A DNA stretch of 42,694 bases from a bacterium (lineage in GTDB: Bacteria; CLD3; SB21), in NCBI GenBank assembly GCA_019695335.1, contig JAIBAF010000028.1, positions 1 to 42,694 on the forward strand. The letters are read 5' to 3'. The position numbers were made by a program, and so were the translations under genes. Positions 27,378 to 42,694 of this stretch are shown here, one piece after another (positions within the stretch are counted from its first letter, which is position 1; the number at the start of each line of letters is the position of its first letter). A model generated the notes under the pieces. It was not told the DNA's origin, made no database searches, and worked only from the letters and a program-made list of their open reading frames with translations.

Positions 27378-27602
27378 ATGCAAAAAACAGCCGTTCGTAA
27401 AGTAGGCAATAGTTTTGGAATTACTCTGCCTAAGGCCATTATTGAAACCTACAATCTGTCAGAGGGGGATGAACTTCACATAATTGAAACGAATGAAGGC
27501 ATCGTTTTATCACCCTTCAATCCGGAGTTCGCCGAATGGGCTGAAGCGTACGATCAAGTCAATCGTAAATACCGTAATACCCTTCATAAACTTGCCAAAT
27601 AA
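27378..27602 (+). CDS. AbrB/MazE-type antitoxin
   Basis: The 74-residue protein has an N-terminal SpoVT-AbrB swapped-hairpin DNA-binding domain (AVRKVGNSFGITLPKAIIETYNLSEGDELHIIETNEGIVLSPF) and a short C-terminal helix (EFAEWAEAYDQVNRKYRNTLHKL) that would bind the toxin. AAGGA precedes the ATG. Its TAA shares a base with the ATG of the Doc gene (TAATG). The AbrB-type antitoxin in place of the usual Phd makes this a hybrid pair. It probably represses its own promoter at 27329-27357. Confidence 0.88.
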   Translation: MQKTAVRKVGNSFGITLPKAIIETYNLSEGDELHIIETNEGIVLSPFNPEFAEWAEAYDQVNRKYRNTLHKLAK

Positions 27603-27997
27603 TGGCCGTTAAATTTTTGCCGCTTGAACTTGTCAAGCTCATTCACGCCAACCAGATCCATCGTTACGGCGGTTTGCCCGGGATACGTGATCACGGTTTG
27701 CTGGAATCGGCTTTGGCTCAGCCAAAAATGAGTGCCGGCGGCCGTCTCATCCATAAAAATATTTTTGAACAAGCCGCGGCTTACGGCTTTCACCTTTGTA
27801 AAAATCATCCATTCGTAGACGGGAATAAACGTACAGCTTTCGTGTCCATGTACGTTTTTCTTTTTAATAACGCTTATGAAATTGTTGCTACAGAAGGAGA
27901 AGCGTACTTGGCGATGATGAAACTTGCTAATGGCAGGCTTTCGAAAAACGAAGTGGTTTCGTGGCTCAAGAAAAATTGTCGGAAGATAAAGAAGTGA
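27602..27997 (+). CDS. doc: Doc-family toxin (Fic fold, death-on-curing)
   Basis: The 131-residue protein has the Doc form of the Fic motif, HPFVDGNKRTA (His69-Arg77 core), after EQAAAYGFHLCKN. The N-terminal KLIHANQIHRYGGLPGIRDHGLLESALAQP is the Doc-family pattern. Doc toxins phosphorylate EF-Tu and stop translation; the NKR ending, not the GNxxxR AMPylator form, supports kinase-type activity. It overlaps the antitoxin stop by one base, so translation is coupled. Together the pair is a plausible stability or stress module. Confidence 0.9.
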   Translation: MAVKFLPLELVKLIHANQIHRYGGLPGIRDHGLLESALAQPKMSAGGRLIHKNIFEQAAAYGFHLCKNHPFVDGNKRTAFVSMYVFLFNNAYEIVATEGEAYLAMMKLANGRLSKNEVVSWLKKNCRKIKK

Positions 27998-28879: not shown

Positions 28880-29009
28880 AATAGTGAAGGAGGCTCCCAT
28901 CCCCATGTGCCAATTTCTCTAATTCGTAGATAACCCATTCGTATTGATTTAAATGGACTAGGAAATTTTTTCTTAAAATGGCACTTTACAGAATTAAGTC
29001 TGTACTGTA

Positions 29010-29114
29010 TATTGGCCTATCATTTTAGTCCAATATCTGCAATTGGCCTGTATAAAATGTTTGAAATTGGTCTATAATTCGTTATTTTTGTCACATCATA
29101 CAGTCCAATTATAG
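29010..29114. promoter_or_regulatory. Array of five ATTGGNCT operator-like sites with a -10 element
   Basis: Copies on the plus strand are ATTGGCCTATC (29011-29021), ATTGGCCTGTA (29042-29052) and ATTGGTCTATA (29066-29076). On the minus strand they are ATTGGACTAAA (29024-29034) and ATTGGACTGTA (29099-29109). The shared form is ATTGGNCTRTA. TATAAT at 29073-29078 overlaps the third site and may be the -10. The array ends 28 bp before the first ATG of the long run. Multiple direct and inverted ATTGG/TGGNCT-type sites are typical of MocR-family regulators, and one such gene lies at 37961. Confidence 0.7.
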
Positions 29115-29136: not shown

Positions 29137-30066
29137 ATGTCGTCCAAAAAACATTTCTCAGCAGGTTTGAGTTCGTATGTGATCTGGGGATTTGTGCCGC
29201 TGCTTTTCAAAGAGTTGAGCGCGTTCGATGATTACGAGATTATTTTCTATCGCGTGTTCGTGGCCGCAATCGCGATGACGGTTGTTTTTTCGCTGGATTT
29301 GAGAGAATCATGGAATGCGGTGGCGGATGTGTTTCGCCAGTCGAAAAAAGATTTTTGGATCATGATGACGCTGACACTCGTGGGCGGCGCGCTATTGATG
29401 GTGAACTGGGTGACGTATGTGTACGTGGTGAATCACGTGAGCATTCACGGCGCAGCATTCGCCTACCTGATCCTGCCGATCGCCACTACGTTTCTTGCGT
29501 TTTTTATTCTCGGCGAAAAATTGAACAAAAATAAATGGACCGGCATCATACTCAGCGGCATTAGTTGTTATCTCATGGCTAACGTAGACGTGAATCAGAT
29601 TCTGTACATCGCCGCGATCACGCTGTCGTATTCGTTTTACATGATCACGCAGCGGAGGAATTTGTATGTCAATCGCCGGATCAGTTTGTCGATGCAAATG
29701 GTTGCGGGCGTTTTAATGATGCTGTTGATCGATCCGATCAAAACGCCGGTCGCGCAATTGGACTTTCATTTCTGGTTGTTTATTTCGCTGGTTGCGTTGT
29801 TTTTTACCATTACGCCGTTACTGTTGAATCTTTACGCGCTGAACGGGATGGAGTCGTCACAGCTCGCATTTTTGATTTATATAAATCCGATCATCAGTTT
29901 CATCATTGGCGTGACGATTTACGGCGAGGAATTGGATTGGCTGGCGGTAGTTGCTTACAGTTTGATGGCGATTGCGATCGTGATTTTCAATTGGGAACTG
30001 ATCGGCCACGCCGCGAAAAAAACGGGCATTTACAAATCGCAGGAATCCGTAAAGAAAGTTGCCTAA
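29137..30066 (+). CDS. RarD-type EamA/DMT-superfamily exporter
   Basis: The 309-residue protein has about ten membrane helices in two EamA halves. The N-terminus AGLSSYVIWGFVPLLFKELSAFDDYEIIFYRVFVAAIAM and NWVTYVYVVNHVSIHGAAFAYLILPIATTFLAFFILGEKL are RarD signatures. TGIILSGISCYLMANV and LFTITPLLLNLYALNGMESSQLAFLIYINPIISFIIGVTIYGEEL complete the second half. RarD proteins are inner-membrane transporters of unknown or amino-acid/metabolite substrates. The start ATG has AAAGG 6 bases upstream. It is first in the long run and lies behind the operator array. Confidence 0.88.
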   Translation: MSSKKHFSAGLSSYVIWGFVPLLFKELSAFDDYEIIFYRVFVAAIAMTVVFSLDLRESWNAVADVFRQSKKDFWIMMTLTLVGGALLMVNWVTYVYVVNHVSIHGAAFAYLILPIATTFLAFFILGEKLNKNKWTGIILSGISCYLMANVDVNQILYIAAITLSYSFYMITQRRNLYVNRRISLSMQMVAGVLMMLLIDPIKTPVAQLDFHFWLFISLVALFFTITPLLLNLYALNGMESSQLAFLIYINPIISFIIGVTIYGEELDWLAVVAYSLMAIAIVIFNWELIGHAAKKTGIYKSQESVKKVA

Positions 30067-30104: not shown

Positions 30105-30731
30105 ATGTACGTTCCTAAACGATATGAAGAAAAAGACGAAGCCATTATTCGTGAATTTATAAAAACGAATAACTTTGCGACCATTGTAAGCTGCGACGAA
30201 AAGACGCCGGTGGCAACGCATTTGCCGTTGGATCTGGTGCAAACGGACGAAGACGAATTTTTGTACGGACATTTTTCAAAAGCGAATACGCATTGGAAAA
30301 AATTGAAAACCGATCAGACGGTCTTGGCCATTTTCACGGGCCCGCACGCGTACATCACGCCGCAGTGGTACGATCATATGAATGTTCCGACGTGGAATTA
30401 CACCGCCATTCACGTGTATGGCAAACTTTCGATCGTTGAAAATTATGACGAATTATATACCATGCTTCAACGGTTAATTGACAAACATGAAGCGCGTTAT
30501 GAAAACAAATATACGATCCATTCCATGACTAAAGAGTATCTGGACAATGAAATGAAAGGGATCGTAGGATTTAAAATCAAAATTGAAAAATTCGAAGCGG
30601 CGTTTAAGCTGAGCCAAAACCGGCATGAGCGGGATTTTGAAAATATTGTTCATCAATTGTCACAGAGCGACGACGCAACCGAGAAAAACGTTGCGGAATG
30701 GATGAAGAAAAAAAACCCGCACAAAAAATAG
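30105..30731 (+). CDS. PaiB-family FMN-binding protein
   Basis: The 208-residue protein has the PaiB pattern throughout: MYVPKRYEEKDEAIIREFIKTNNFATIVS, ATHLPLDLV, YGHFSKANTHWKK, and VLAIFTGPHAYITPQWYDHMNVPTWNYTAIHVYGKL. In Bacillus paiB stands beside the GNAT gene paiA and the pair affects protease and sporulation control; the fold is a flavin-reductase split barrel that can bind FMN or heme. Here a GNAT gene follows 61 bp on, as in the paiAB pair but in reverse order. AGAGG lies shortly before the ATG. Role is probably detoxification or redox rather than DNA binding. Confidence 0.85.
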   Translation: MYVPKRYEEKDEAIIREFIKTNNFATIVSCDEKTPVATHLPLDLVQTDEDEFLYGHFSKANTHWKKLKTDQTVLAIFTGPHAYITPQWYDHMNVPTWNYTAIHVYGKLSIVENYDELYTMLQRLIDKHEARYENKYTIHSMTKEYLDNEMKGIVGFKIKIEKFEAAFKLSQNRHERDFENIVHQLSQSDDATEKNVAEWMKKKNPHKK

Positions 30732-30745
30732 GATGATGGGGAATT

Positions 30746-30768
30746 CACTCAGAACCGAGTTCGGAGTG
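30746..30768. repeat. Small intergenic hairpin
   Basis: CACTC-A-GAAC (30746-30755) pairs with GTTC-G-GAGTG (30759-30768) around a CGA loop with one mismatch. No T run follows, so it is likely a small intergenic repeat rather than a terminator. Confidence 0.4.
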
Positions 30769-30792
30769 ACAAAAAACTCAGTGTGAGGAAAT

Positions 30793-31245
30793 ATGGAATA
30801 TTACAAAAATGAATTTACGATCAGCACGGACAAACGAAAATTAGATATCGAAACGATTCATGGTTTTCTGACCACGTCGTATTGGGCGAAAGACATTACG
30901 CCGACGATTGTTTTGCGCGGTATCGAGCATTCGCTGTGTTTCGGCATTTACGACGGATCGAAACAAATCGGATTTGCGCGCGTGATTTCGGATTACACGA
31001 CGTTCGCTTATCTGGCCGATGTTTTCGTCATCGAAACGTACCGCGGTCGCGGGTTGTCGAAGTGGTTGATGGAATGCATTATGAATTATCCCGATCTTCA
31101 GGGTTTGCGCCGGTGGATGCTGATGACACGCGATGCGCACGGATTATATGAACAATACGGGTTTCAGATTGCAGCGCGTCCACAACACGTGATGGAGATT
31201 GCACGACCGACTATTTATTCAGAAATGTTCACAATGAACAATTAA
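30793..31245 (+). CDS. GNAT N-acetyltransferase
   Basis: The 150-residue protein has a compact GNAT fold: FGIYDGSKQIGFARVISDYTTFAYLADVFVIETYRGRGLSKWLMECIMNYPDLQG is the beta4 plus acetyl-CoA loop (YRGRGL), and RRWMLMTRDAHGLYEQYGFQ closes the fold. This single-domain subgroup is broad, and its substrate is unknown. A weak GTGAGGAAAT site precedes the ATG. It follows the PaiB-family gene, as paiA does in reverse in Bacillus, which makes a polyamine- or small-amine-type substrate conceivable. Confidence 0.85.
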   Translation: MEYYKNEFTISTDKRKLDIETIHGFLTTSYWAKDITPTIVLRGIEHSLCFGIYDGSKQIGFARVISDYTTFAYLADVFVIETYRGRGLSKWLMECIMNYPDLQGLRRWMLMTRDAHGLYEQYGFQIAARPQHVMEIARPTIYSEMFTMNN

Positions 31246-31255
31246 GTAATGATTA

Positions 31256-32230
31256 ATGAACAATAGTAATTCAATAAAGGTAATCACGACTTATTTGGAG
31301 ATGTTCGAAAAGCCGAAGTTTTTTTTCGAACAAAAACCGGGGACGTCAGTCATTCGTGCAGAAAAACCGACGGTTTCGTTTTACCGCTATTTATATAACA
31401 CCGTCGGCGCGTCGTGGCTGTGGGTCGATCGAAGAAAAATGAAAGACGTGGAGTTGCGAACGATCATTCAAGATCCAAAAATTGAAGTGAATGTCTTATA
31501 CGTCGGAGGCACGCCGGCGGGATATGCGGAGTTGGATTTACGCCAGCCGGGTGAAATCGAGCTCGGATATTTTGGACTGATTCCGGATTTTGTCGGGCAA
31601 GGTTTGGGAAAATATTTGCTCACATGGGCCGTTGACGCCGCGTGGAAAAAAAATCCAAAACGTTTTTGGGTACATACATGCAGCCTCGATCATCCGACGG
31701 CTTTGCCCTTATATCAAAAATGCGGATTCACTATTTACAAAACTGAAGAACACTATGACGGATCCGCGCACGGAAGGCTGGTTTCAATGAATGTTATTCG
31801 CTGTACAGAAAAGCACGCAGCAGTGATTGCACCGCTATTCGACGCGTATCGCGGGTTTTATCATCAAACCTCCGATATCACCGGCGCAGAAAAATTTTTA
31901 TCCGACAGGCTGAAGAATTCTGAATCCATTGTCTTTGTGGCTTTGGATGATTCCGGGAAAGCTTTGGGCTTTGTTCAATTGTATCCGTCGTTTTCATCGG
32001 TTTCAATCAAAAAAATTTGGATTTTGAATGATTTGTTTGTCATCCCGGAAGCACGCAAAAAGGGCGTTGGCGAAGCTTTAATGGAAACGGCACGGAAATT
32101 TGCAGTGGAAACGCATGCTAAAGGATTGCAATTGGAGACCGGAATTGAAAATATCACCGCGCAACGTTTGTACGAAAAACTTGGTTATGTCAGGAACGTC
32201 GAAACGCATCAATATTTTCTGAAGGTGTGA
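31256..32230 (+). CDS. Tandem two-domain GNAT acetyltransferase
   Basis: The 324-residue protein holds two GNAT domains. The first (about 1-180) has YVGGTPAGYAELDLRQPGEIELGYFGLIPDFVGQGLGKYLLTWAVDAAWKK with the acetyl-CoA loop GQGLGK. The second (from ~183, MNVIRCTEKHAAVIAPLFDAYRGFY) has FVQLYPSFSSVSIKKIWILNDLFVIPEARKKGVGEALMETARKFA with loop RKKGVG and the closing RLYEKLGYVRN. The junction has its own ATG at about 31802, so two once-separate genes may have fused. The start is uncertain by a few codons. It ends with a TGA that overlaps the next gene's region. Substrates are unknown. Confidence 0.85.
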   Translation: MNNSNSIKVITTYLEMFEKPKFFFEQKPGTSVIRAEKPTVSFYRYLYNTVGASWLWVDRRKMKDVELRTIIQDPKIEVNVLYVGGTPAGYAELDLRQPGEIELGYFGLIPDFVGQGLGKYLLTWAVDAAWKKNPKRFWVHTCSLDHPTALPLYQKCGFTIYKTEEHYDGSAHGRLVSMNVIRCTEKHAAVIAPLFDAYRGFYHQTSDITGAEKFLSDRLKNSESIVFVALDDSGKALGFVQLYPSFSSVSIKKIWILNDLFVIPEARKKGVGEALMETARKFAVETHAKGLQLETGIENITAQRLYEKLGYVRNVETHQYFLKV

Positions 32231-32232
32231 TT

Positions 32233-32718
32233 GTGATTCAAAGCATGACTGAAAACGATTGGCCGTTTGTTCAGGCGATTTACGAGGAAGGCATTGCGAC
32301 CGGGCATGCGACGCTGGAAGTCAGTGTTCCGGATTGGCCGAAGTGGGATGCCGAACACGTGGAGGAATGCCGGCTTGTTTTCAGAGAAAACGGTACCGTT
32401 CAAGGTTGGGCCGCATTGACAGCCGTTTCAGGGCGTTGCGTCTACGCCGGCGTGGCCGAAGTCAGCGTGTATATCGGTAATTCTTTCAAAGGCAAAGGCA
32501 TCGGTAAAAAATTATTGCAATCGCTTGTAGAAACATCAGAAGCGAATGGTATCTGGACTCTGCAAGCCGGAATTTTAAAAGAAAATACCGCCAGCATCGA
32601 ATTGCATAAATCGTGTGGTTTTCGCGAAGTCGGCGTACGCGAAAAATTGGGACAACTCAAAGGCGTGTGGCGCGACGTCGTTTTGATGGAAAGGCGCAGT
32701 AAGGTAGTAGGCGTATGA
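32233..32718 (+). CDS. GNAT acetyltransferase, phosphinothricin/methionine-sulfone type
   Basis: The start is set at the GTG at 32233, with GAAGG seven bases upstream; a GTG at 32227 overlaps that site. Over about 161 residues the protein follows the PAT/YwnH-type GNAT pattern: MTENDWPFVQAIYEEGIATGHATLEVSVPDWPKWDAEH, VSVYIGNSFKGKGIGKKLLQSLVETSEANGIWTLQAGILKENTASIELHKSCGFREVGVREKLGQLKGVWRDVVLMER. Members acetylate phosphinothricin, methionine sulfone/sulfoximine or other small amino-group compounds. It shares an ATGA overlap with the DJ-1/PfpI gene. Confidence 0.88.
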   Translation: MIQSMTENDWPFVQAIYEEGIATGHATLEVSVPDWPKWDAEHVEECRLVFRENGTVQGWAALTAVSGRCVYAGVAEVSVYIGNSFKGKGIGKKLLQSLVETSEANGIWTLQAGILKENTASIELHKSCGFREVGVREKLGQLKGVWRDVVLMERRSKVVGV

Positions 32719-33317
32719 AACAACGTAATGTTGCCGTAATTATTTTTGACGAAGTCGAAGTGCTCGATTTTTGCGGTCCGTTTGAAGTTTTTTCCGTGAC
32801 GGGACAACGGGATGGTTCCAATCCATTCAATGTGTACACGGTTGCCCAACACCATCAATTAATTTTGGCGCGGAATGCTTTGAGTGTTAAACCGCATTTT
32901 GATTTTAACGATTGCCCGGCTCCCGATATTGTGGTGGTGCCCGGAGGGTTTGGAACGCGCAAAGAAATGAATAATCCGGTGTTGCTCGAGTGGATTCGTG
33001 AAGTTAATCAAAAAGCTGAATTAATGTTATCTGTGTGCACGGGCGCGTTAATTTTAGCCAAGGCAGGATTGCTTGACGGTTTATCGGCGACTACGCATCA
33101 CGGTGCAGTCGATTTATTGAAAGAAGTCGCGCCAAAAACGCGCGTCGACACATCAAAACGTTTTATTGACAATGGCCGGATCATTTTATCGGCCGGTATT
33201 TCGGCCGGACTGGATATGTCGCTTCACGTTGTAGAAAAATTATTGGGCAAAGCGCAAGCGGTTGAAACAGCCCAATACATGGAGTATCGTTGGGAAATCG
33301 ATAAGACCGATCAATAA
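32715..33317 (+). CDS. DJ-1/PfpI family protein
   Basis: The 200-residue protein has the DJ-1 fold: RNVAVIIFDEVEVLDFCGPFEVFSV, DIVVVPGGFGTRKEMN, and the nucleophile elbow LMLSVCTGALILAKAGLLDG with Cys108, followed by TTHHGAVDLL with a candidate His. The subfamily resembles isonitrile hydratases and the glutamine-amidotransferase-like domains of AraC-type regulators, without an HTH. Possible roles are detoxification or hydrolysis of a small metabolite. ATG lies in an ATGA overlap with the previous gene's stop. Confidence 0.85.
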   Translation: MKQRNVAVIIFDEVEVLDFCGPFEVFSVTGQRDGSNPFNVYTVAQHHQLILARNALSVKPHFDFNDCPAPDIVVVPGGFGTRKEMNNPVLLEWIREVNQKAELMLSVCTGALILAKAGLLDGLSATTHHGAVDLLKEVAPKTRVDTSKRFIDNGRIILSAGISAGLDMSLHVVEKLLGKAQAVETAQYMEYRWEIDKTDQ

Positions 33318-33343
33318 GTTACGATTTATTCATAGGAGAAAAC

Positions 33344-33871
33344 ATGGATTTTAAAACGCGCCCCGCAACCGGTGACTACAACGACTATTTTAAACGGTAT
33401 ATCGATCGCATTCCCCCGGAAAGCGATTTGTTACAGCTATTAGAATCAGATTTTCGTGAGACGGAAAAATTCATCCTGTCGTTATCGGAAGAACAGTTAA
33501 ACCACCGTTATGCTCCGGATAAATGGTCGATCAAGGAGATCATCAATCATCTTACCGATGGCGAACGGGTATTTGCTTACCGCGCGATGCGGATTTCACG
33601 CAAAGATCAAACCGTTCTTCCCGGGTTTGACGAAAATTTATACGTACCGAACGCCAAAGCCTCTGCTCGATCTATCAGCAGTCTGATATCGGAATTTTCA
33701 GCTGTTCGCCGCGCAACCATTGAACTATTTAAAAATTTCGACAGTGAAATGTTGGCGCAAACCGGAACGGCAAGCAATTATAAAATCTCCGTACGCGCTC
33801 TTGGTTTTATTATCGCAGGGCACGAATTGCATCACATGAACGTTATTAAAGAACGTTATTTGAAAGGATAA
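33344..33871 (+). CDS. DinB-family metal-dependent protein
   Basis: The 175-residue protein has a four-helix DinB/YfiT-like bundle: SDFRETEKFILSLSEEQLNHRYAPDKWSIKEIINHLTDGERVFAYRAMRISRK, and the closing IAGHELHHMNVIKERY. The spaced histidines (His in NHL, and HELHH) match the metal site of the family. DinB-family members are often thiol transferases (bacillithiol or mycothiol S-transferases) or maleylpyruvate isomerase relatives, not DNA polymerase. AGGAG lies a few bases before the ATG. Confidence 0.85.
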   Translation: MDFKTRPATGDYNDYFKRYIDRIPPESDLLQLLESDFRETEKFILSLSEEQLNHRYAPDKWSIKEIINHLTDGERVFAYRAMRISRKDQTVLPGFDENLYVPNAKASARSISSLISEFSAVRRATIELFKNFDSEMLAQTGTASNYKISVRALGFIIAGHELHHMNVIKERYLKG

Positions 33872-33875
33872 AATT

Positions 33876-34304
33876 TTGAATGCTTTTTATTGGCCAATTG
33901 TCCTGGTTGTCGCCGCTAACATCATTTATCATCTCTCCCAAAAATCGATCCCGCATAGCGTGAATCCGATAGTATCGACGATCGTTGCCTACGGAGTTGC
34001 GCTCGTGGCGTCAATCGTTTTGTATCCGTTTTTCGCCGATGGGCAAAGCATTGCCAATCAAGTGAAGGAAATCAACTGGTCGACGTATACGGTTGGAATT
34101 GCAATCGTAGGAATTGAAGTTGGATTTTTGCTGGCGTACCGCATCGGTTGGAACGTCAGCTTTGGCGCCATTTTTTCAAATGCGACGGCAACGTTGCTGC
34201 TGATTCCGCTTGGATTGCTGTTTTTTAAAGAAAAAATATCATGGATCAATATTACCGGCATCCTGTTGTGCATTGCCGGATTGTGGATGATTATAAAAAA
34301 ATAA
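33876..34304 (+). CDS. Half-size EamA-like transporter
   Basis: The 142-residue protein has about five helices, one EamA unit: MNAFYWPIVLVVAANIIYHLSQKSIP, IVSTIVAYGVALVASIVLYPFF, VGIAIVGIEVGFLLAYRIG, FGAIFSNATATLLLIPLGLLFFKEKISW and ITGILLCIAGLWMIIKK. Single-unit EamA proteins act as dimers. The start is a TTG at 33876 with AAGGA eight bases upstream, since an ATG nearby (33880) is out of frame. Substrate unknown. Confidence 0.82.
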   Translation: MNAFYWPIVLVVAANIIYHLSQKSIPHSVNPIVSTIVAYGVALVASIVLYPFFADGQSIANQVKEINWSTYTVGIAIVGIEVGFLLAYRIGWNVSFGAIFSNATATLLLIPLGLLFFKEKISWINITGILLCIAGLWMIIKK

Positions 34305-34320
34305 ATTTTTAAGGATAAAT

Positions 34321-34728
34321 ATGATCGACTACCGCATCGGGAATGATCTGGATTTGGATGAAATGATTGAGTTATATCGCGCTTCGACTTTAGGCGAACG
34401 GCGGCCCGTGGACGATCGTAAACGAATGGGCGAAATGTTGAAAAATGCAAATTTAGTTGTGACGGCGTGGGAAGGAAATTTGATGGTTGGTATTTCACGT
34501 TCCATAACGGATTTTGTATACGCAACGTATTTATCGGATCTTGCCGTACGATTGTCGCATCAAAAAGCCGGTATCGGAAAGGAATTGATCCGCCGGACAC
34601 AAGCGGCGGCTCCACAAGCCAGCGTCATCCTTTTAGCCGCACCTAAGGCTGTGGATTATTATCCACGTATCGGATTTACGCAGCATCTCAGTGCGTGGTG
34701 GTTGAAGTCGGATGAGAGAGTGAAATAA
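34321..34728 (+). CDS. GNAT N-acetyltransferase
   Basis: The 135-residue protein has GNAT motifs: IDYRIGNDLDLDEMIELYRAS, VVTAWEGNLMVGISRSITDFVYATYLSDLAVRLSHQKAGIGKELIRRTQAAA with QKAGIGK as the acetyl-CoA loop, and ILLAAPKAVDYYPRIGFTQH at the end. It belongs to the small-GNAT group found widely in FCB bacteria, with unknown substrate. AAGGA precedes the ATG. It is 16 bp from the half-size EamA gene. Confidence 0.82.
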   Translation: MIDYRIGNDLDLDEMIELYRASTLGERRPVDDRKRMGEMLKNANLVVTAWEGNLMVGISRSITDFVYATYLSDLAVRLSHQKAGIGKELIRRTQAAAPQASVILLAAPKAVDYYPRIGFTQHLSAWWLKSDERVK

Positions 34729-34812
34729 ATTATTTATACCAGAGAACACTGAAAGCGCAGAGATTACGAAACTGATTCCTCGCTTCGTTCGGTATAGAGC
34801 AAAGGGAAGTAA

Positions 34813-35562
34813 ATGGAAGCAACTTTTAAAGATCATTTTTCAAAGCAATCGGATTTGTACGCTAAATTCCGTCCCGATTACCCGAAAGCAATGTACGAAT
34901 TCATCCTTTCGCATGTGCAAGGGCGAGAACTTGCATGGGATTGTGGTACAGGTAACGGGCAGGTGGCGGCAGCATTAGTTGAATATTTTGATCGTGTCAT
35001 TGCCACCGATCCAAGCGCCAAACAAATCGAAAAAGCCTTTCACCATGATAAAATTGAATACAGAATCGAACCGGCTGAACAAACGAGCCTGCAAAACGGA
35101 ACCGTTGATTTTGTCGCCGTCGCACAAGCGTTACATTGGTTTGATTTCGATCAATTCTATTCAGAAGTCCGTCGCGTAGCTAAATCCAAAGCTATTGTTG
35201 CGGTATGGACGTATGATCTTTTAAAAGTGAATGCTGAGATCGATCAGATTATCAATCATTTTTATACGGAAGTTGTCGGGTCTTATTGGCCGAAAGAACG
35301 GCGCTGGGTGGATGAACAATATAAAACCATTCCTTTTCCGATTGACGAATTCAAAGCGCCGGAATTCTTCATCGATAAATTTTTTAATTTTGAAGATTTT
35401 TTAGGTTATCTCCACACATGGTCGAGCGTGCAGCAATACATTAAAATCAATGGCCAAGATCCGGTTGATGAAATAAAACATGATTTATTAACCGCATGGG
35501 GAAACCCCGGAAAAGAAATTCCGGTTCGTTGGCCGGTATACGTCAGAATAGGACGAGTATGA
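34813..35562 (+). CDS. Class I SAM-dependent methyltransferase
   Basis: The 249-residue protein has the SAM motif I ELAWDCGTGNGQVAAALVEYF, motif II VIATDPSAKQIEKA, and VDFVAVAQALHWFDFDQFYSEVRRVAK as motifs III/IV. This pattern fits the trans-aconitate-methyltransferase-like class of small-molecule methyltransferases. The substrate is unknown. GGGAAG precedes the ATG. The gene's TGA overlaps the ATG of the MOSC gene at 35559 (ATGA). Confidence 0.88.
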   Translation: MEATFKDHFSKQSDLYAKFRPDYPKAMYEFILSHVQGRELAWDCGTGNGQVAAALVEYFDRVIATDPSAKQIEKAFHHDKIEYRIEPAEQTSLQNGTVDFVAVAQALHWFDFDQFYSEVRRVAKSKAIVAVWTYDLLKVNAEIDQIINHFYTEVVGSYWPKERRWVDEQYKTIPFPIDEFKAPEFFIDKFFNFEDFLGYLHTWSSVQQYIKINGQDPVDEIKHDLLTAWGNPGKEIPVRWPVYVRIGRV

Positions 35563-36350
35563 ATCTTTCATCAATTTATGTTTACCCGATCAAAGCGTGC
35601 CGTGGCCTTTTAGTTGATCATGTGACGTTTGACGAATATGGAATTGAAGGAGACCGTCGTTTTCTGATCGTCGATTCGGAAGGTGTGGCGATGACGCAAC
35701 GTGACTTTCATACTTTGACATTTGTCGAGCCGCAAGCCGATGGAGAAGTTCTTTCACTGTCAGCCCCGGGAATGAACAAAGTTCAAATTGACGTTTCTCA
35801 TAATCACTTTCGACAAAAAGTTCAAGTGTGGGATGATCGTTGCGATGCCGAGGATTGTGGCGATGAAGCAGCCGAGTGGTTCAGCGAATATTTAAAATTA
35901 CGGTGTCGATTGGTAAAAATGGCTCATGGCTTTACGAGACTGATTGACAGAAATTATTCGTCACTTGACGAGCACGTAAGTTTTGCCGACGCTTATCCGG
36001 CATTGATCATTTCTGAGGCATCGCTCGCGGACTTGAATTCAAAGCTCGAAGAAAAAATAACGATGAAACGCTTTCGTCCGAATTTTGTGGTTGAAGGTTG
36101 CGAACCGTTTGCCGAAGACAGTTGGAAAAAAATACAAATCGGTTCTATGACTTTTCGCGCGGTCAAATTATGTGCGCGCTGTGTGGTTCCGACGATCAAC
36201 CTTGAAACCGGAGTGCCGGGAAAAGAACCATTACGCACACTGGCGACGTATCGTACCATCAATGGCAAAGTCATGTTTGGCCAGAATATCATTCACGATC
36301 AGAAATCGGGCTCAGTGCGCGCCGGCGATACCGTCACAGTGATTCAATAA
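35559..36350 (+). CDS. MOSC-domain protein with N-terminal beta-barrel (YcbX/mARC-like)
   Basis: The start at 35559 overlaps the previous stop (ATGA); in-frame starts further up lie in the previous gene. The 263-residue protein has the MOSC_N domain (MNLSSIYVYPIKACRGLLVDHVTFDEYGIEGDRRFLIVD) and a MOSC domain with KLCARCVVPTINLETGVPGKEPLRTLATYR, holding Cys205 and Cys208. This is the molybdenum-cofactor-binding fold of YcbX and mARC, which reduce N-hydroxylated compounds; the ferredoxin domain of YcbX is missing, so a separate electron donor would be needed. Role is likely reductive detoxification. Confidence 0.87.
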   Translation: MNLSSIYVYPIKACRGLLVDHVTFDEYGIEGDRRFLIVDSEGVAMTQRDFHTLTFVEPQADGEVLSLSAPGMNKVQIDVSHNHFRQKVQVWDDRCDAEDCGDEAAEWFSEYLKLRCRLVKMAHGFTRLIDRNYSSLDEHVSFADAYPALIISEASLADLNSKLEEKITMKRFRPNFVVEGCEPFAEDSWKKIQIGSMTFRAVKLCARCVVPTINLETGVPGKEPLRTLATYRTINGKVMFGQNIIHDQKSGSVRAGDTVTVIQ

Positions 36351-36360
36351 GGAGAGATTT

Positions 36361-37137
36361 ATGAGAATTCCTTTATATCAAATTGATGCATTTACCAACC
36401 GTGTGTTTTCAGGTAATCCGGCTGCCGTGTGTCCGTTGGAATCGTGGTTAGATGATACGATCTTACTGAACATCGCTGCGGAAAATAATTTATCCGAGAC
36501 GGCGTTTTTTGTACGTGAAGGTGACATTTTTCGTTTGCGTTGGTTTACACCGCGTGTTGAAGTGGATTTGTGCGGGCACGCTACACTCGCATCGGCGTAC
36601 GTAATTTTTAATTTGATGCACTATCACGGCGACCGGATTGAATTTCTTTCTCAAAGCGGGCCGTTGTGGGTTTATCGCCGTGGTCATCATTTGGTAATGG
36701 ATTTCCCGACGCGCGATCCGATAGCCTGTGAAGTTCCGGCCAATTTAATCAAAGGCCTTGGCGTGCAACCGATTGAAGTGTTGAAATCGCGGGACTATTT
36801 TTGCGTGCTCGATTCGGAAGAACAAGTTCGCACCGTTATTCCGGACATGAATTTGTTGATGACTCTCGACGCCGATGTGCTTATTACCGCGAAGGGTAAT
36901 CAGGCGGATTTCGTTTCCCGCTATTTCGCTCCGCTCGCCGGTATTCCTGAAGATCCGGTGACGGGTTCGACCCATTGCAATCTGATTCCTTACTGGGCGG
37001 AAGCTCTTGGCAAAAAAGAATTGTACGCCCAACAGCTTTCCAAACGCGGCGGGGAAATTTTTTGTGAAATGCACGGGGATCGCGTGCACATTGCCGGAGA
37101 AGCGGCGAAATATTTTGAAGGTTTTATTGAAATATAA
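36361..37137 (+). CDS. PhzF-family isomerase-like protein
   Basis: The 258-residue protein has the PhzF/diaminopimelate-epimerase fold: IPLYQIDAFTNRVFSGNPAAVCPLESWL, NNLSETAFFV with Glu46 as the catalytic base, RWFTPRVEVDLCGHATLASA, and GIPEDPVTGSTHCNLIPYW. PhzF acts on a dihydro-anthranilate in phenazine synthesis, but most relatives have unknown small-acid substrates; no other phenazine genes are near. GGAGAG precedes the ATG. Confidence 0.9.
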   Translation: MRIPLYQIDAFTNRVFSGNPAAVCPLESWLDDTILLNIAAENNLSETAFFVREGDIFRLRWFTPRVEVDLCGHATLASAYVIFNLMHYHGDRIEFLSQSGPLWVYRRGHHLVMDFPTRDPIACEVPANLIKGLGVQPIEVLKSRDYFCVLDSEEQVRTVIPDMNLLMTLDADVLITAKGNQADFVSRYFAPLAGIPEDPVTGSTHCNLIPYWAEALGKKELYAQQLSKRGGEIFCEMHGDRVHIAGEAAKYFEGFIEI

Positions 37138-37139
37138 TA

Positions 37140-37607
37140 ATGGAAAATAAAGTACTTATCATCGATTATTCCCAAGAACATCAACCGGTGTTCAAAGCGC
37201 TTAATGTAGCATGGATCGAGAAAAGTTTTGAAATGGAACCCATCGATCATTATCAATTGGATCATCCGGAAGAAGCGATTTTGAAAGACGGCGGATGCAT
37301 TATTCTTGCTCAATATGATAACCAAATCGTAGGAACATGCGCGTTGATCAGAATGAATACGGAAGTCGTAGAAATGATCAAAATGGCTGTCGATGAACGT
37401 TTTCGCGGTTTGAAAATCGGTCATGAGTTAGGAAAAGCCATTGTCGATAAAGCAAAACAGATGGGCGCAAAAAAAATTGAATTGTATTCCAGTACGACCG
37501 GTTCGGCCAATGCCGTGCAATTGTATAGAAAATTAGGCTTCCGCGAAATTCCTCTCGATCACATGGAATTCAAACGGGCCGATATTAAAATGGAATTGGA
37601 ATTATGA
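37140..37607 (+). CDS. GNAT N-acetyltransferase
   Basis: The 155-residue protein has GNAT motifs: IDHYQLDHPEEAILKDGGCIILAQYDNQIVGTCALIRMNTEVVEMIKMAVDERFRGLKIGHELGKAIVDKAKQMGAKKIELYSSTTGSANAVQLYRKLGFREI. The loop FRGLKIGHELGK is the acetyl-CoA site. Substrate unknown. The ATG follows the PhzF stop by two bases and lacks a clear ribosome site, so translational coupling is likely. Its TGA overlaps the cupin ATG (ATGA). Confidence 0.86.
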   Translation: MENKVLIIDYSQEHQPVFKALNVAWIEKSFEMEPIDHYQLDHPEEAILKDGGCIILAQYDNQIVGTCALIRMNTEVVEMIKMAVDERFRGLKIGHELGKAIVDKAKQMGAKKIELYSSTTGSANAVQLYRKLGFREIPLDHMEFKRADIKMELEL

Positions 37608-37933
37608 AAATCGAAACTGTTCCTTTTCAGGTTGTTGATTGGAAAGCAGTTGACACGACTGAACATGCCGGCGATTCAGGTAAGGCCTACTGGAGAACTT
37701 TTCAGGAAGGCAATATCCGCGTTCGTATGGTCGAATATACGCCGGGTTATCATGCCAATCATTGGTGCAAAAAAGGGCACGTACTATTGGTAATGGAAGG
37801 TGAATTAACTACCGAACTTGAAGACGGGAGAAAATTTACGTTAAAGCCGGGTATGAGTTATCAGGTAGCCGATGATCTTTTTCCGCATCGGTCATACACG
37901 GAAAAAGGCGCAAAATTATTTATTGTAGATTAA
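37604..37933 (+). CDS. DHCW-motif cupin
   Basis: The 109-residue single-domain cupin fits the DHCW-motif cupin group: VPFQVVDWKAVDTTEHAGDSGKAYWRTFQEGNIRVRMVEYTPGYHANHWCKKGHVLLVMEGELTTELEDGRKFTLKPGMSYQVADDLFPHRSYTEKGAKLFIVD. The metal-type residues are His in NHWC, His in KKGH, and the DLFPHR His; the usual DHCW reads NHWC. Function is unknown. It overlaps the preceding GNAT gene by four bases. Confidence 0.87.
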   Translation: MKIETVPFQVVDWKAVDTTEHAGDSGKAYWRTFQEGNIRVRMVEYTPGYHANHWCKKGHVLLVMEGELTTELEDGRKFTLKPGMSYQVADDLFPHRSYTEKGAKLFIVD

Positions 37934-37960: not shown

Positions 37961-39502
37961 ATGTTTTTCGAACTTAACAAAGACAACGGTATTCCGCTGT
38001 ATATTCAGATTGAATCGCGTTTGACGCAGCTGATCCATCAGGGAATACTGAAGCCGCTGGAACGGTTGCCGGCAACTCGGGAATTATCGGATCAACTGAA
38101 TGTGCATCGCAATACGGTCGTTCAGGCTTACCGTGAATTAGAAGTGAAAGGGTTTGTGTTTTCTGAAGTCGGGCGTGGCACCTTTGTCAACAAATACATT
38201 AAACCCGAATCGCATCGCGAGACTTTTTCATCGTTGATGTCGAGTGCACAATTTTCTTACGACGGATTGTACTCTGATAATTGGATCAGCCCCGAAGACA
38301 TTACGATGACGACCATTGAAAACATCGTTCGGACCTGCCATAAACCTAAAGACGTTATTGCTTTTTCTTCCGTAGTGCCGGACAAAAACATTTTCCCTTT
38401 ACGCGAATTTCAAAATTGTACGTATCACACGATTCAGAAATACGGCGTTGATTTATTGGAAATGGGTGACACGCAGGGATTTCGCCCATTTCTGGAATAC
38501 TTACCTAAATTTTTTGTCCGCCGCGGTATGACCGTGCACAGCGATGACATCATCATTGTCAGCGGGATTCAACAAGGCATCGATCTGATCAGCCGTTTGC
38601 TGCTTAATCCCGGCGACACAGTCGTTACAGAGGAATTGACCTATCGCGGCGCGCTGCGTATTTTCCGTTCGCTTGGTGTCAATGTCATCGGTATTCCCGC
38701 CGATCGTCAAGGCATGAGAACCGACGTGCTGGAAACTATTCTTGAGCGGCAGAAAATTAAAATGATTTATACGATTCCAACGTTCCAAAATCCGACCGGA
38801 ACGGTCATGCCGCTCGAACGGCGTAAACAGTTACTGGAGTTAGCGCAGCGATACCAGATTCCAATCATCGAAGATCAGTACGCCAATGAACTGAGGCTCG
38901 ACGGTGAAGAAGTACTGCCGCTGGCGGCGCTGGACAAAACAGGACAAGTGATTGTGCTCGGAAGTTTTTCAAAAATTCTCTTTCACGGAATCCGCCTCGG
39001 CTGGGTCGTTGCGCCCAACAAAGGTTTTTTTAACAAATTGTGTTACGCTAAACGTATTACCGACTGGCAAAACAATTATTTAATTCAAGGCGCTATTCTT
39101 GAATTTTGCGAACGTGGTTATTTCGATAAATACCTGAAGAAAAAATTAAAAATTCTTAAAGAACGCCGTGATGCGATGTACGAAGCTTCACGAAATTATT
39201 TTCCGGAAGAAGTGTTCTATGAACGGGCGTGCGGCGGGCTTTTCGAGTGGGCGGAACTGCCTCCCGAGTTAAACGCTTATGAATTGCTTATGGAAACACG
39301 CCAACGCAGCGTGCTGTTTACGCCGAAAAGATTTTTCTCCGCTCATGCAGACGATGATAACGGTATGAGGCTCGGCTACGTTTCATACGAGCCTTCGAAA
39401 ATTGCGGAAGGCATGCGGATCCTTGGTGAGTATTTGAAGCGTGCCATTGCTGTTCAGTCGAATACGGTCGTTGTAAGCGAAAACATTGCACCGGTGATTT
39501 AG
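37961..39502 (+). CDS. MocR-type regulator: GntR winged HTH fused to aminotransferase
   Basis: Residues ~10-75 are a GntR-type winged HTH (IPLYIQIESRLTQLIHQGILKPLERLPATRELSDQLNVHRNTVVQAYRELEVKGFVFSEVGRGTFV). The rest is a fold-type I aminotransferase with the PLP lysine at Lys338 (GSFSKILFHGIRLGW), YTIPTFQNPTG, EDQYANEL and MRLGYVSYEP, all the PLP-contacting motifs. MocR proteins sense PLP or PLP-amino-acid adducts and bind TGG-type repeat operators; many control pdx, GABA or taurine genes. AAGGAG lies 6 bases before the ATG. The pdxS/pdxT genes lie 1.9 kb downstream and the ATTGGNCT array 8.9 kb upstream. Confidence 0.93.
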   Translation: MFFELNKDNGIPLYIQIESRLTQLIHQGILKPLERLPATRELSDQLNVHRNTVVQAYRELEVKGFVFSEVGRGTFVNKYIKPESHRETFSSLMSSAQFSYDGLYSDNWISPEDITMTTIENIVRTCHKPKDVIAFSSVVPDKNIFPLREFQNCTYHTIQKYGVDLLEMGDTQGFRPFLEYLPKFFVRRGMTVHSDDIIIVSGIQQGIDLISRLLLNPGDTVVTEELTYRGALRIFRSLGVNVIGIPADRQGMRTDVLETILERQKIKMIYTIPTFQNPTGTVMPLERRKQLLELAQRYQIPIIEDQYANELRLDGEEVLPLAALDKTGQVIVLGSFSKILFHGIRLGWVVAPNKGFFNKLCYAKRITDWQNNYLIQGAILEFCERGYFDKYLKKKLKILKERRDAMYEASRNYFPEEVFYERACGGLFEWAELPPELNAYELLMETRQRSVLFTPKRFFSAHADDDNGMRLGYVSYEPSKIAEGMRILGEYLKRAIAVQSNTVVVSENIAPVI

Positions 39503-39522: not shown

Positions 39523-39873
39523 ATGAACGATTTAAAAAATCAAATCTTCGAGCTATCGGAAAAAATTAGGTACGTTGCGATTTACAAAAACGGTGAATTG
39601 ATTTCGTCGAGCAAGCAAGATTTACAAAACACCAGTTCGTCCGAATCGGATAAATATGAGGAGTTGATTGTCAACCCGACGTTGCTTACACTGGCCACGC
39701 AACGTGGCAATATCGATTGCGGCGGATGCGAGTATATCGTAATTCGTTACGGCCATTTTTTTGAATACATGTCTCGAATCAAAGACGGCCATGTCAGTGT
39801 TGGGATCGAACCGGATGCGGAAGTTACTGACTTGGCTATCCGTCTTAAAAAAACGCTAACTATTCACGAGTGA
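39523..39873 (+). CDS. Conserved protein of unknown function (roadblock-like?)
   Basis: The 116-residue soluble protein reads EKIRYVAIYKNGELISSSKQDLQNTSSSESDKYEELIVNPTLLTLATQRGNIDCGGCEYIVIRYGHFFEYMSRIKDGHVSVGIEPDAEVTDLAIRLKKTL. The alternating strand-helix plan is similar to roadblock/LC7-type domains, but that is only a pattern resemblance. The CGGCE (Cys-Gly-Gly-Cys) pair is notable. GAAAGGAAG precedes the ATG. It sits directly after the MocR gene and overlaps the next gene's start (TGATG). Confidence 0.75.
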   Translation: MNDLKNQIFELSEKIRYVAIYKNGELISSSKQDLQNTSSSESDKYEELIVNPTLLTLATQRGNIDCGGCEYIVIRYGHFFEYMSRIKDGHVSVGIEPDAEVTDLAIRLKKTLTIHE

Positions 39874-40379
39874 TGATTGGTCAAATAATTCAAATTAATG
39901 TCTCTTCCGGTGGCGTGCCCAAGAGACCGGTTGCATCGGCGTTTGTCAGCTTCGAACGGGTTGAGGGTGATGATTGGCGGTATAAAGATGTGCATGGAGG
40001 GGCGCAACAAGTCATTTTGATGATTGCTCAAGAAAATATTGATACACTTGCAAAGACAGGCTTTTCAATATTCCCAGGGGCACTGGGAGAAAATTTTACG
40101 ACGACCGGCATTGATTACAAAAATATTCGTTATGGCGATGTATTCAAAGCGGGCGATACTTTGGAATTTCGCATTACCAAACGCCGTGCGCCTTGCAGGA
40201 CTATTCTAGTCTATGGTGCTGCGATCGGCGAAGCTATTTTCGATAGAGCTGCGAACGAACATGATTTTCGTTCTGAAAAATGGGGCATGTCCGGTTTTTA
40301 TGCCGAAATACTGAAAGAAGGATCCGTCAAAACCGGTGACGCGATTGAAAAAATTAACAGGATTACCTCTAATGAGTAA
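39873..40379 (+). CDS. MOSC-domain protein (YiiM-like, single domain)
   Basis: The start at 39873 shares its A with the stop of the previous gene (TGATG). The 168-residue protein has a MOSC domain: IGQIIQINVSSGGVPKRPVASAFVSFERVEGDDWRYKDVHGGAQQVILM, FPGALGENFTTTGIDY, RYGDVFKAGDTLEFRITKRRAPCRTIL with the probable molybdenum ligand Cys in APCRT. It lacks the N-terminal barrel of the MOSC protein at 35559. It may be an activity partner for molybdenum-dependent N-hydroxy reduction. Its stop overlaps the next gene by 8 bp. Confidence 0.85.
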   Translation: MIGQIIQINVSSGGVPKRPVASAFVSFERVEGDDWRYKDVHGGAQQVILMIAQENIDTLAKTGFSIFPGALGENFTTTGIDYKNIRYGDVFKAGDTLEFRITKRRAPCRTILVYGAAIGEAIFDRAANEHDFRSEKWGMSGFYAEILKEGSVKTGDAIEKINRITSNE

Positions 40380-41325
40380 AAAGAGCTATTGGCCGACGCT
40401 GGTGATCGTCATTCTCTCCGTCATCTGGGGCTCAACGTGGATTGCCATCAAATTTGGATTGGAAGATTTGCCGCCTTTCTTGTTCGGAGGTTCACGCTTT
40501 ATCATCGCGACGATTTTAGTTTGGTTGATGATGAAAGTATGGAAGATCACGTTTCCTCGCGATTGGGAGTCGTGGAAGATCATGCTGATTCTTGGTCTCG
40601 CGCAGGCGGGCGATTATGTATTTGTATTTTGGGGCGAACAGTATATCAGCGGCGGGCTGGGCGCGATTTTGTTTGCGACAATGCCTTTTTTCGTTGTGAT
40701 CCTTAATTATTTCATGGCCGATGAACACGGAGTCGAGCCTGTACAAATCGTAGGTATTGCAATTAGTTTCATTGGTGTTGTTCTGATTTTTATCAAAGAT
40801 ATGTCACTTTCAGATAATTCTGTATGGGGTGGCATCGCGATTATTGCTGCATCGATTTGTGGGGCGTTTATCAGCGTCTACGCGAAACTTCATGCCAATA
40901 ATATTCATTCGATTACGAATACATTCACGCAAATGCTCGTATCGGCTGTTGTTTTGTGTACGATGGGATTGATTTTAGAAGATGTAAATCGATTCCATTT
41001 GACAATGGATGGCGCCTTGTCCATTCTGTATCTTGGTTTGTTCGGCTCTGCGATTGCGTTTGTTTTGTACATGTGGGTTATTAAAAAAGTTTCAGTGATT
41101 GAAGCTTCTGTGATTCCATTGACGACGCCGATTGCCGCTGTAATTCTAGGTTGGGCAATGCGCGATGAAGCGATGGGAATCAATGTGATTGCCGGAGGAA
41201 TTTTGATTCTTGCAGGAGTATATCTTGTTAATATTTTAAAAACTCAATTGATGTTTAGAAAAAAAACAGCTGTTTCCTCCGGACCTGCAGAGGTTGCTGA
41301 CGTCGTCAATGAGGCAAAAATTTAA
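40372..41325 (+). CDS. EamA/DMT-superfamily transporter
   Basis: The start at 40372 (MSKKSYWPTLVIVILSVIWGSTWIAIKFGLEDLPPFLFGGSRF) is set since an upstream in-frame ATG (40336) lies in the preceding gene. The 317-residue protein has ten helices in two EamA halves, with IWGSTWIAIK, WGEQYISGGLGAILFATMPFFVVILNYF, and SVIEASVIPLTTPIAAVILGWAMRDEAM. EamA exporters of this kind move amino acids or related metabolites outward, and DMT genes commonly neighbour MocR genes. The gene overlaps the MOSC gene by 8 bp, so translation is coupled. It ends the long run. Confidence 0.88.
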   Translation: MSKKSYWPTLVIVILSVIWGSTWIAIKFGLEDLPPFLFGGSRFIIATILVWLMMKVWKITFPRDWESWKIMLILGLAQAGDYVFVFWGEQYISGGLGAILFATMPFFVVILNYFMADEHGVEPVQIVGIAISFIGVVLIFIKDMSLSDNSVWGGIAIIAASICGAFISVYAKLHANNIHSITNTFTQMLVSAVVLCTMGLILEDVNRFHLTMDGALSILYLGLFGSAIAFVLYMWVIKKVSVIEASVIPLTTPIAAVILGWAMRDEAMGINVIAGGILILAGVYLVNILKTQLMFRKKTAVSSGPAEVADVVNEAKI

Positions 41326-41406: not shown

Positions 41407-42345
41407 ATGGCAGTAAATAATCAAAAACAAGCGGTCTCCGGCGGCAATGGCCAGGAGGATAACGTTTTGAAAGGAACGTATAAAGTCAAAGTCGGGTTAG
41501 CCGAAATGCTGAAAGGCGGCGTCATCATGGATGTCGTCAATGCCGAGCAGGCAAAAATAGCTGAAGATGCCGGCGCATGCGCAGTCATGGCTTTGGAACG
41601 TGTGCCCGCCGATATTCGCCGCGACGGCGGTGTCGCGCGGATGAGCGATCCGGAAATGATTCTCGGTATCATGGATGCGGTGACGATTCCGGTCATGGCG
41701 AAAGCGCGTATCGGACATTTTGTCGAAGCGCAAATTCTCGAAGCGCTCGGCGTCGATTTTATTGACGAGAGTGAAGTGTTAACGCCCGCGGACGAAACCA
41801 ACCATATTTACAAACACGATTTTAAAATTCCGTTCGTTTGCGGTGCGACTAATCTCGGTGAAGCTTTACGCCGTATCGGTGAAGGAGCGGCGATGATTCG
41901 CACCAAAGGCGAAGCCGGCACCGGCAACGTTGTCGAAGCCGTACGTCATATCCGCACCATCGTCGGCCATCTCAAAAAACTGACCGTGATGGGAGAAGAT
42001 GAGTTAATGAGCGAAGCAAAAACGCTCGGAGCGCCGTACGAACTCGTTCGCTGGGTCGCCCAGCACGGAAAATTACCTGTGCCCAATTTTTCGGCGGGTG
42101 GTATTGCGACGCCGGCGGATGCGGCTTTGGTCATGCAACTTGGCGCGGAAGCTGTATTTGTCGGTTCAGGCATTTTCAAATCCGGCAATCCGGCGAAACG
42201 CGCGGAAGCGATCGTGAAAGCCGCCACGCATTTTCGCGATGCTCAGGTTTTGGCGGATATTTCCAAAGGCCTCGGTGAAGCTATGGTCGGCATCAACCTG
42301 GACACTTTGAATGCCAGTGAACTTTTGGCCAACCGCGGCTGGTAA
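41407..42345 (+). CDS. pdxS: Pyridoxal 5'-phosphate synthase subunit PdxS
   Basis: The 312-residue product has all PdxS motifs: [74 protein letters not shown] with the ribose-phosphate lysine, [11 protein letters not shown] with the second catalytic lysine, and [33 protein letters not shown]. PdxS joins ribose 5-phosphate and glyceraldehyde 3-phosphate with ammonia from PdxT to make PLP. A ~15-residue N-terminal tail ([15 protein letters not shown]) is longer than usual. AAGGAAAACTC precedes the ATG. The pdxT gene follows. Confidence 0.97.
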
Positions 42346-42428: not shown

Positions 42429-42694
42429 GTGTTGAAAAAAATAGGTGTATTGGCGCTGCAGGGGGATTTCGATGCGCATCAAAAAATGCTGGATCGACTG
42501 TCCGTACAGTCGTTACAAATTCGAACCCGTGAACAACTAAATGATATAGGCGGACTGATCATTCCGGGTGGCGAGAGTACTACTTTGATTAAACTCATGC
42601 GTGCGTTCGATCTGATCGAACCGATCAGTCAATTTTATGAAAAAGGCAAACCGATTTTCGGTACATGTGCCGGTTCGATTCTCGTAGCCAAAAA
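42429..42694 (+). CDS. pdxT: Pyridoxal 5'-phosphate synthase glutaminase PdxT (truncated by window end)
   Basis: The frame is open to the window edge. Its start is a GTG (42429) or TTG (42432), right after an in-frame TGA; no ATG is available there. Translation reads (V)LKKIGVLALQGDFDAHQKMLDRL, then IIPGGESTTLIKLMRAF and IFGTCAGSILVAK. The glutaminase GGES and the nucleophile Cys in GTCAG fit PdxT, which feeds ammonia to PdxS. The non-ATG start and weak ribosome site suggest low or PdxS-coupled translation. The distance to the pdxS stop is 83 bp. Confidence 0.92.
   Translation, partial: MLKKIGVLALQGDFDAHQKMLDRLSVQSLQIRTREQLNDIGGLIIPGGESTTLIKLMRAFDLIEPISQFYEKGKPIFGTCAGSILVAK

Follow-up and report, generated by a model that had tools for sequence, protein, structure and literature searches.

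A putative seven-box PdxR operator at the head of a long pdxR-pdxST gene run in an uncultured bacterial lineage

The locus analyzed here raises the question of which regulator recognizes a cluster of closely similar TGG boxes in front of a long co-directional gene run, and how these boxes act on the promoter in which they lie. The window, i.e. the whole 42,694-nt stretch of DNA under analysis, belongs to genome G000; G001 to G006 are relatives from the same family, and G007 and G008 are class-mates from another family. The original prediction had described five copies of an ATTGGNCTRTA-type sequence, three on the plus and two on the minus strand. All five were recovered at 29011-29109, three matching ATTGGNCTRTA exactly and two with one mismatch; as a description of the array they are incomplete, because two plus-strand boxes further upstream, A and B, belong to the conserved set. 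The array totals seven boxes, five direct and two inverted, and contains a predicted promoter:

28953-28960, plus strand: box A, ATGGACTA; TGG at 28954, about -65 from the predicted start; TGGNCTA invariant across five genomes
28978-28987, plus strand: box B, ATGGCACTTT (longer form TGGNNCTT); TGG at 28979, about -40, running into the -35 hexamer; conserved in the family
28985-29013, plus strand: predicted promoter TTTACA (28985-28990), 17 nt, TATATT (29008-29013); start expected near 29020
29011-29021, plus strand: box C, ATTGGCCTATC; TGG at 29013, TTGGNCTA invariant; overlaps the -10 and the expected start
29024-29034, minus strand: inverted box C', ATTGGACTAAA; present in G000 and G001, degenerate (ATTGGCAC / ATTGGTAT) in G004 and G005, absent from G003
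29042-29052, plus strand: box D, ATTGGCCTGTA; TGG at 29044; conserved, 30-31 bp after C
29066-29076, plus strand: box E, ATTGGTCTATA; TGG at 29068, AATTGG invariant; its end forms a TATAAT
29099-29109, minus strand: inverted box F, ATTGGACTGTA; present in G000 and, degenerate, in G001; confined to the genus

The clustering is well above chance. TTGGNCTR occurs five times within 105 bp, compared with a maximum of two both in 300 first-order Markov resamplings of the window and in 3000 resamplings of the local AT-rich region. As this motif had been picked post hoc, all 8-mers with one wildcard were searched as well; ATTGGNCT was the top word of the window (five copies, 29011-29102), and the best word in 12 resamplings reached three copies 11 times and four copies once. 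Lone exact ATTGGNCTRTA sites in the 3.76-Mb genome are at chance level (13 versus 14 in the reversed control). TTGGNCT pairs, direct or inverted, are no more frequent than in the reversed control, and the regulon can therefore not be defined by lone boxes or loosely paired ones.

TTTACA-17-TATATT is the best sigma-70-type match of the intergenic region, with 10 of 12 consensus positions; TATATT does not vary among five genomes, and four retain TTTACA. Boxes B and C overlap both hexamers, B at the edge of the -35 and C covering the -10 together with the expected start. The overlap of one copy with a TATAAT that had been pointed out before does exist (29073-29078, the tail of box E), but this element was rejected as the main -10: no adequate -35 accompanies it and its conservation stops at the genus, whereas TTTACA-17-TATATT matches better and is conserved.

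Downstream of the array, a plus-strand run starts at 29137 and continues past the contig end at 42694. It is co-directional, as had been proposed; its size was put at about 18 genes, and we count about 20, ending in pdxS-pdxT:

29137-30066, plus strand: first gene, EamA/RarD-like transporter (Pfam EamA; under the NCBIfam RarD cut-offs)
30105-37933, plus strand: FMN_bind_2 (PaiB-type), GNATs, DJ-1/PfpI, DinB, an EamA half, methyltransferase, MOSC, PhzF and cupin (Pfam, NCBIfam)
37961-39502, plus strand: pdxR, MocR-type regulator with GntR HTH and aminotransferase fold (NCBIfam equivalog, Pfam)
39523-41325, plus strand: 116-aa unknown protein, MOSC protein and EamA transporter
41407-42345, plus strand: pdxS, PLP synthase lyase subunit (NCBIfam equivalogs, 515.6 against a cut-off of 395 and 475 against 438.45)
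42432-42694, plus strand: start of pdxT, cut by the contig end (by sequence reading; resembles the pdxT-like ORFs after pdxS in loci L044 and L047)

The MocR gene expected within the run is indeed present. Its identity as PdxR, like the presence of pdxST, had escaped the original prediction. The protein scores 327.9 bits with the PdxR model NF052282 against a cut-off of 320, a narrow margin, and the G004 orthologue falls just below it at 316.1. The GntR domain (PF00392, E = 2.6e-17) spans residues 13-76 and the aminotransferase domain (PF00155, E = 1.9e-23) residues 164-461. Lys338, in the motif SFSKILF, is invariant among six aligned PdxR orthologues; from family knowledge we take it to be the PLP-binding (Schiff-base) lysine of the aminotransferase fold. 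Among solved structures, GabR is the regulator relative listed. The protein misses the cut-off of the GabR model (188.5 against 600). In G000 and G001, one GntR-HTH protein each was found, which is PdxR. A second MocR-like protein (G000 contig 29) was rejected as a rival regulator, being a 401-aa aminotransferase without an HTH. The MOSC family corresponds to COG2258. The linkage of pdxR to pdxS and the start of pdxT, which end the run, recurs in the same order in L044 and L045/L047.

Several neighboring genes deserve mention in their own right. The half-size, single-EamA transporter gene within the run (33876-34304, 142 aa) may need a partner or homodimerize. Directly before pdxR lies a DHCW-motif cupin (37604-37933; NF038084, a hypothetical equivalog), for which a PLP-linked role is possible; directly after it, the 116-aa protein (39523-39873) is conserved in G000 and G001 and matches nothing in Pfam or NCBIfam. 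In other genera, the orthologous runs carry genes that look by eye like PLP enzymes (L045:15595-17058 and L044:11369-12517): a decarboxylase-like gene directly after pdxR, and one for a trans-sulfuration-type protein. A stand-alone Fic/DOC-family protein upstream of the array (27602-27997) was not seen beside the array in other genera.

The geometry of the direct boxes, A-25-B-34-C-30/31-D-24/25-E (in bp), is kept in five genomes despite diverged flanks. The spacings are 25-34-31-24 in the window, 25-34-30-24 in G003, 25-34-30-25 in G004 and 25-34-31-25 in G005, so that D and E stand 24-25 bp apart, the same as A and B. Invariant columns make up 30 of 40 positions inside the boxes versus 20 of 91 elsewhere (Fisher p = 1.4e-8), and the window is identical to G003 at 33 of 40 box positions against 36 of 91 outside. 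A sequence-only 130-nt profile of the array, built without G006 and run over 41 genomes, found one strong place per genome in six family genomes (81-101 bits; 82.8 in G006) and a weak match in G002 (23 bits); nothing above 20 bits was found elsewhere. In G000 and in five other family genomes (G001 and G003 to G006, thus including the place found in G006), the gene next to the array is the same RarD/EamA-type transporter that opens the run; in G001, G003, G004 and G005 the run leads on to pdxR, and to pdxS/pdxT where the contig is long enough. The upstream neighbors vary between genera, which assigns the array to the run. In G002, the run has similar gene types in another order, and an A-B module immediately precedes it. 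PdxR orthologues in the family are 65-94 % identical. The original prediction had made its case depend on ATTGGNCT sites being conserved in relatives with this MocR; they are kept with their spacing in G001 and G003 to G006, more weakly in G002, and the two class-mates, G007 and G008, have neither a MocR of the PdxR kind nor the array. Conservation is weak for the inverted-repeat half of the model, since other genera have a degenerate C' or none and F is confined to the genus.

These data bear on two explanations that do without a DNA-binding regulator. A chance cluster or a dispersed repeat element would fit the chance-level frequency of single ATTGGNCTRTA sites genome-wide, but the five-fold cluster never arose in the resamplings, and in several genera each genome has a single such place, always at the same position; this conservation refutes the explanation, and its probability is negligible. 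Alternatively, the boxes downstream of the start could act as RNA, the C/C' and E/F hairpins forming a 5' leader attenuator or riboswitch. C/C' and E/F are inverted pairs, and the G000 leader folds somewhat better than shuffled sequences (z = -1.94). Four relatives yielded z values of -0.08, -1.05, 0.04 and 0.76, however, and thus no conserved fold; the inverted boxes are the least and the direct boxes the most conserved, transcription is expected to start downstream of A and B, and no Rfam match was obtained up to E = 1. We consider an RNA element extremely unlikely.

The boxes recur in front of distantly related pdxR genes. We collected 75 distant MocR loci (31-38 % identity, 1.30 Mb in total), 24 of them linked to pdxS and 51 others. 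Nine A-B modules were found, eight of which precede the MocR start by 74-101 bp in coding orientation; these eight come from Chloracidobacterium, six Rokubacteria and a Gemmatimonadetes bin, and seven of them have pdxS downstream. TTGGN(1-2)CTTKAC, which combines box B with the -35, was located within 300 bp upstream of MocR in 17 of 17 occurrences in the pdxS-linked loci, against 4 upstream and 11 elsewhere in the other 51. Nominal p-values for such counts are overstated because loci from related species, many of them Rokubacteria, are counted as independent, but the pattern still spans several phyla. Most of the upstream B boxes, which read (CCA)ATTGGNNCTTKAC, are flanked by one TGG 23-26 bp ahead and another 33-34 bp further on, as in the window. 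The resulting A-B-C core is common to distant PdxR genes of Rokubacteria, Acidobacteria and Chloroflexi, and at four such loci the protein scores above the PdxR cut-off; the exact box form is missing from many MocR loci, mainly those of Firmicutes. Among 386 unselected genomes the B-C core is not enriched (18 matches versus about 14 in the reversed control), with 4 of the 18 adjoining a PdxR or RarD-type gene. It is therefore no general promoter signal and is meaningful solely next to PdxR.

A second operon came to light through a weak half match of the array profile in G000 and G001:

G000 contig 17, 8784-11133 (L160:784-3133), minus strand: 108-aa unknown protein, Lrp/AsnC, LysE and EamA genes, with an A-B module in the promoter

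In its promoter, A and B, at a distance of 24 bp, are accompanied by TTGACG and, about 17 bp on, a -10-like element (TATAAT in G001); no C, D or E box is present. In G003, a LysE-EamA pair (LysE 58 % identical) has the same A-B pair with a poorer -35. In G000, the A-B module with a -35 occurs in two places, the main array and this operon. A scan of nine genomes with TGGNCT-N18/19-TGGNNCTTKAC returned the main promoter in the six family genomes, the second promoter in G000 and G001 and one extra place in G001, with one reversed-control match in total and no match in the class-mates. The extra place (G001 contig 384:1572-1606, TGGCCT-N18-TGGATCTTTAC) has no G000 counterpart and is possibly due to chance. 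The Lrp-LysE-EamA operon, with its exporter genes, is probably a second target of PdxR, on the support of three genomes.

Taken together, the conservation of the array, the sole GntR-HTH protein, the boxes upstream of distant PdxR genes, the PLP-linked gene content and the published box consensus argue for the MocR-operator reading proposed originally. In Corynebacterium glutamicum the PdxR consensus is AAAGTGGW(-/T)CTA, as quoted in PMC4494728, and both TGGNCTA and TGG-NN-CTT, the form longer by one base (TGGNNCTT), fit it. The array is thus very probably an autoregulatory operator of PdxR, in which A-B would be the activating pair and C, D and E, together with the inverted boxes, would serve feedback repression by PLP. 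We infer that PdxR binds the boxes, that PLP is the signal and that some boxes activate and others repress. PdxR without PLP would occupy A and B (-65/-40, B touching the -35) and activate the promoter. Protein bound to box C over the -10 and start, to the D-E pair and to the inverted C' and F would block initiation or early elongation, so that plentiful PLP would lead to feedback repression of pdxR, pdxST and the transporter and acetyltransferase genes. That the second operon has A-B alone would fit an activating A-B pair, the rest being the feedback part of the autoregulated operon.

Two rival readings retain DNA binding by a regulator. In the simpler one, PdxR binds all boxes and represses from all of them, as a plain autorepressor without an activating pair; the overlap of B and C with both promoter hexamers would suit this, and in group A Streptococcus a modest repression of pdxR by its own product is described (PMC11619246). 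Box A near -65, however, is outside the core contacts of polymerase yet conserved like B and C, and the second operon retains A-B and not C; moreover, characterized PdxR proteins activate pdxST or pdxKU at low B6 (PMC5320631, PMC11619246). Pure repression is accordingly rather unlikely. The other rival assigns the array to a different protein, for instance the Lrp/AsnC regulator whose gene sits in the second operon bearing the A-B module, with PdxR in the run by coincidence. This is highly unlikely: the same boxes occur directly before pdxR in Rokubacteria and an acidobacterium, in an otherwise different pdxR-pdxST neighborhood, and match the published PdxR consensus (PMC4494728).

Returning to the autoregulatory PdxR operator, we tentatively suggest that the two promoters could form a two-module vitamin B6 thermostat, in which the A-B pair is shared with the transporter operon, and D-E, C and the inverted boxes add PLP feedback solely at pdxR-pdxST. 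The A-B-C core with its built-in -35 and -10 might then be an old PdxR architecture of several phyla in which PdxR operators are uncatalogued. The locus provides a testable link of regulator, site and genes for an uncultured lineage, would tie poorly characterized PaiB-type, GNAT, MOSC, PhzF, EamA and LysE genes to the vitamin B6 level, and would extend the PdxR promoter architecture across phyla. With A-B alone at one operon and the full set of A to F at the other, the two promoters also offer a natural test of the MocR activator-to-repressor switch on PLP binding.

Known MocR systems show both likenesses and differences. The PdxR operators of C. glutamicum pdxR-pdxST, Bacillus clausii and Listeria monocytogenes share the regulator family, the pdxST target and the TGG-W-(T)-CTA box. 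Here, in contrast, five direct and two inverted boxes span the promoter and extend into the leader; the pdxR and pdxST genes follow about 9-12 kb downstream in a 20-gene run rather than beside the operator. PdxR operators combine direct and inverted repeats about whole helical turns apart, and in B. clausii apo-PdxR is reported to prefer direct and PLP-PdxR inverted repeats (PMC5320631); repeated TGG boxes near the promoter are likewise found here, at spacings of 25, 34, 31 and 24 bp, several of which are not exact multiples of 10.5. The TauR operator of Rhodobacter capsulatus (CTGGACYTAA) also has direct repeats of a closely similar TGGACY box, but TauR controls taurine genes and the regulator here matches PdxR instead. 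The ATACCA repeats of the GabR operator of Bacillus subtilis are direct repeats to which a MocR dimer binds in head-to-tail fashion; their box differs from ours, as does the protein by the model cut-off. The MocR catalogue of Suvorova and Rodionov (2016; 825 regulators; PMC5320631) describes the same TGG-core boxes and the same PLP-linked gene types, listing pdxST, RimI/RimL acetyltransferases, COG2258, COG384 (PhzF) and DMT transporters. It gives two to four boxes per motif, a descriptive rather than defining range that is exceeded by the seven here, treats three direct boxes as a rare class (18 regulons), and finds most PdxR groups in Proteobacteria, Firmicutes and Actinobacteria, whereas the present array is in an unclassified lineage. 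For other groups, part of the A-B-C core may already be recorded in that catalogue. What is new in the present case is the size of seven boxes, the single array heading a run with distal pdxR and pdxST, the lineage, and the A-B-C core shared with the PdxR genes of other phyla.
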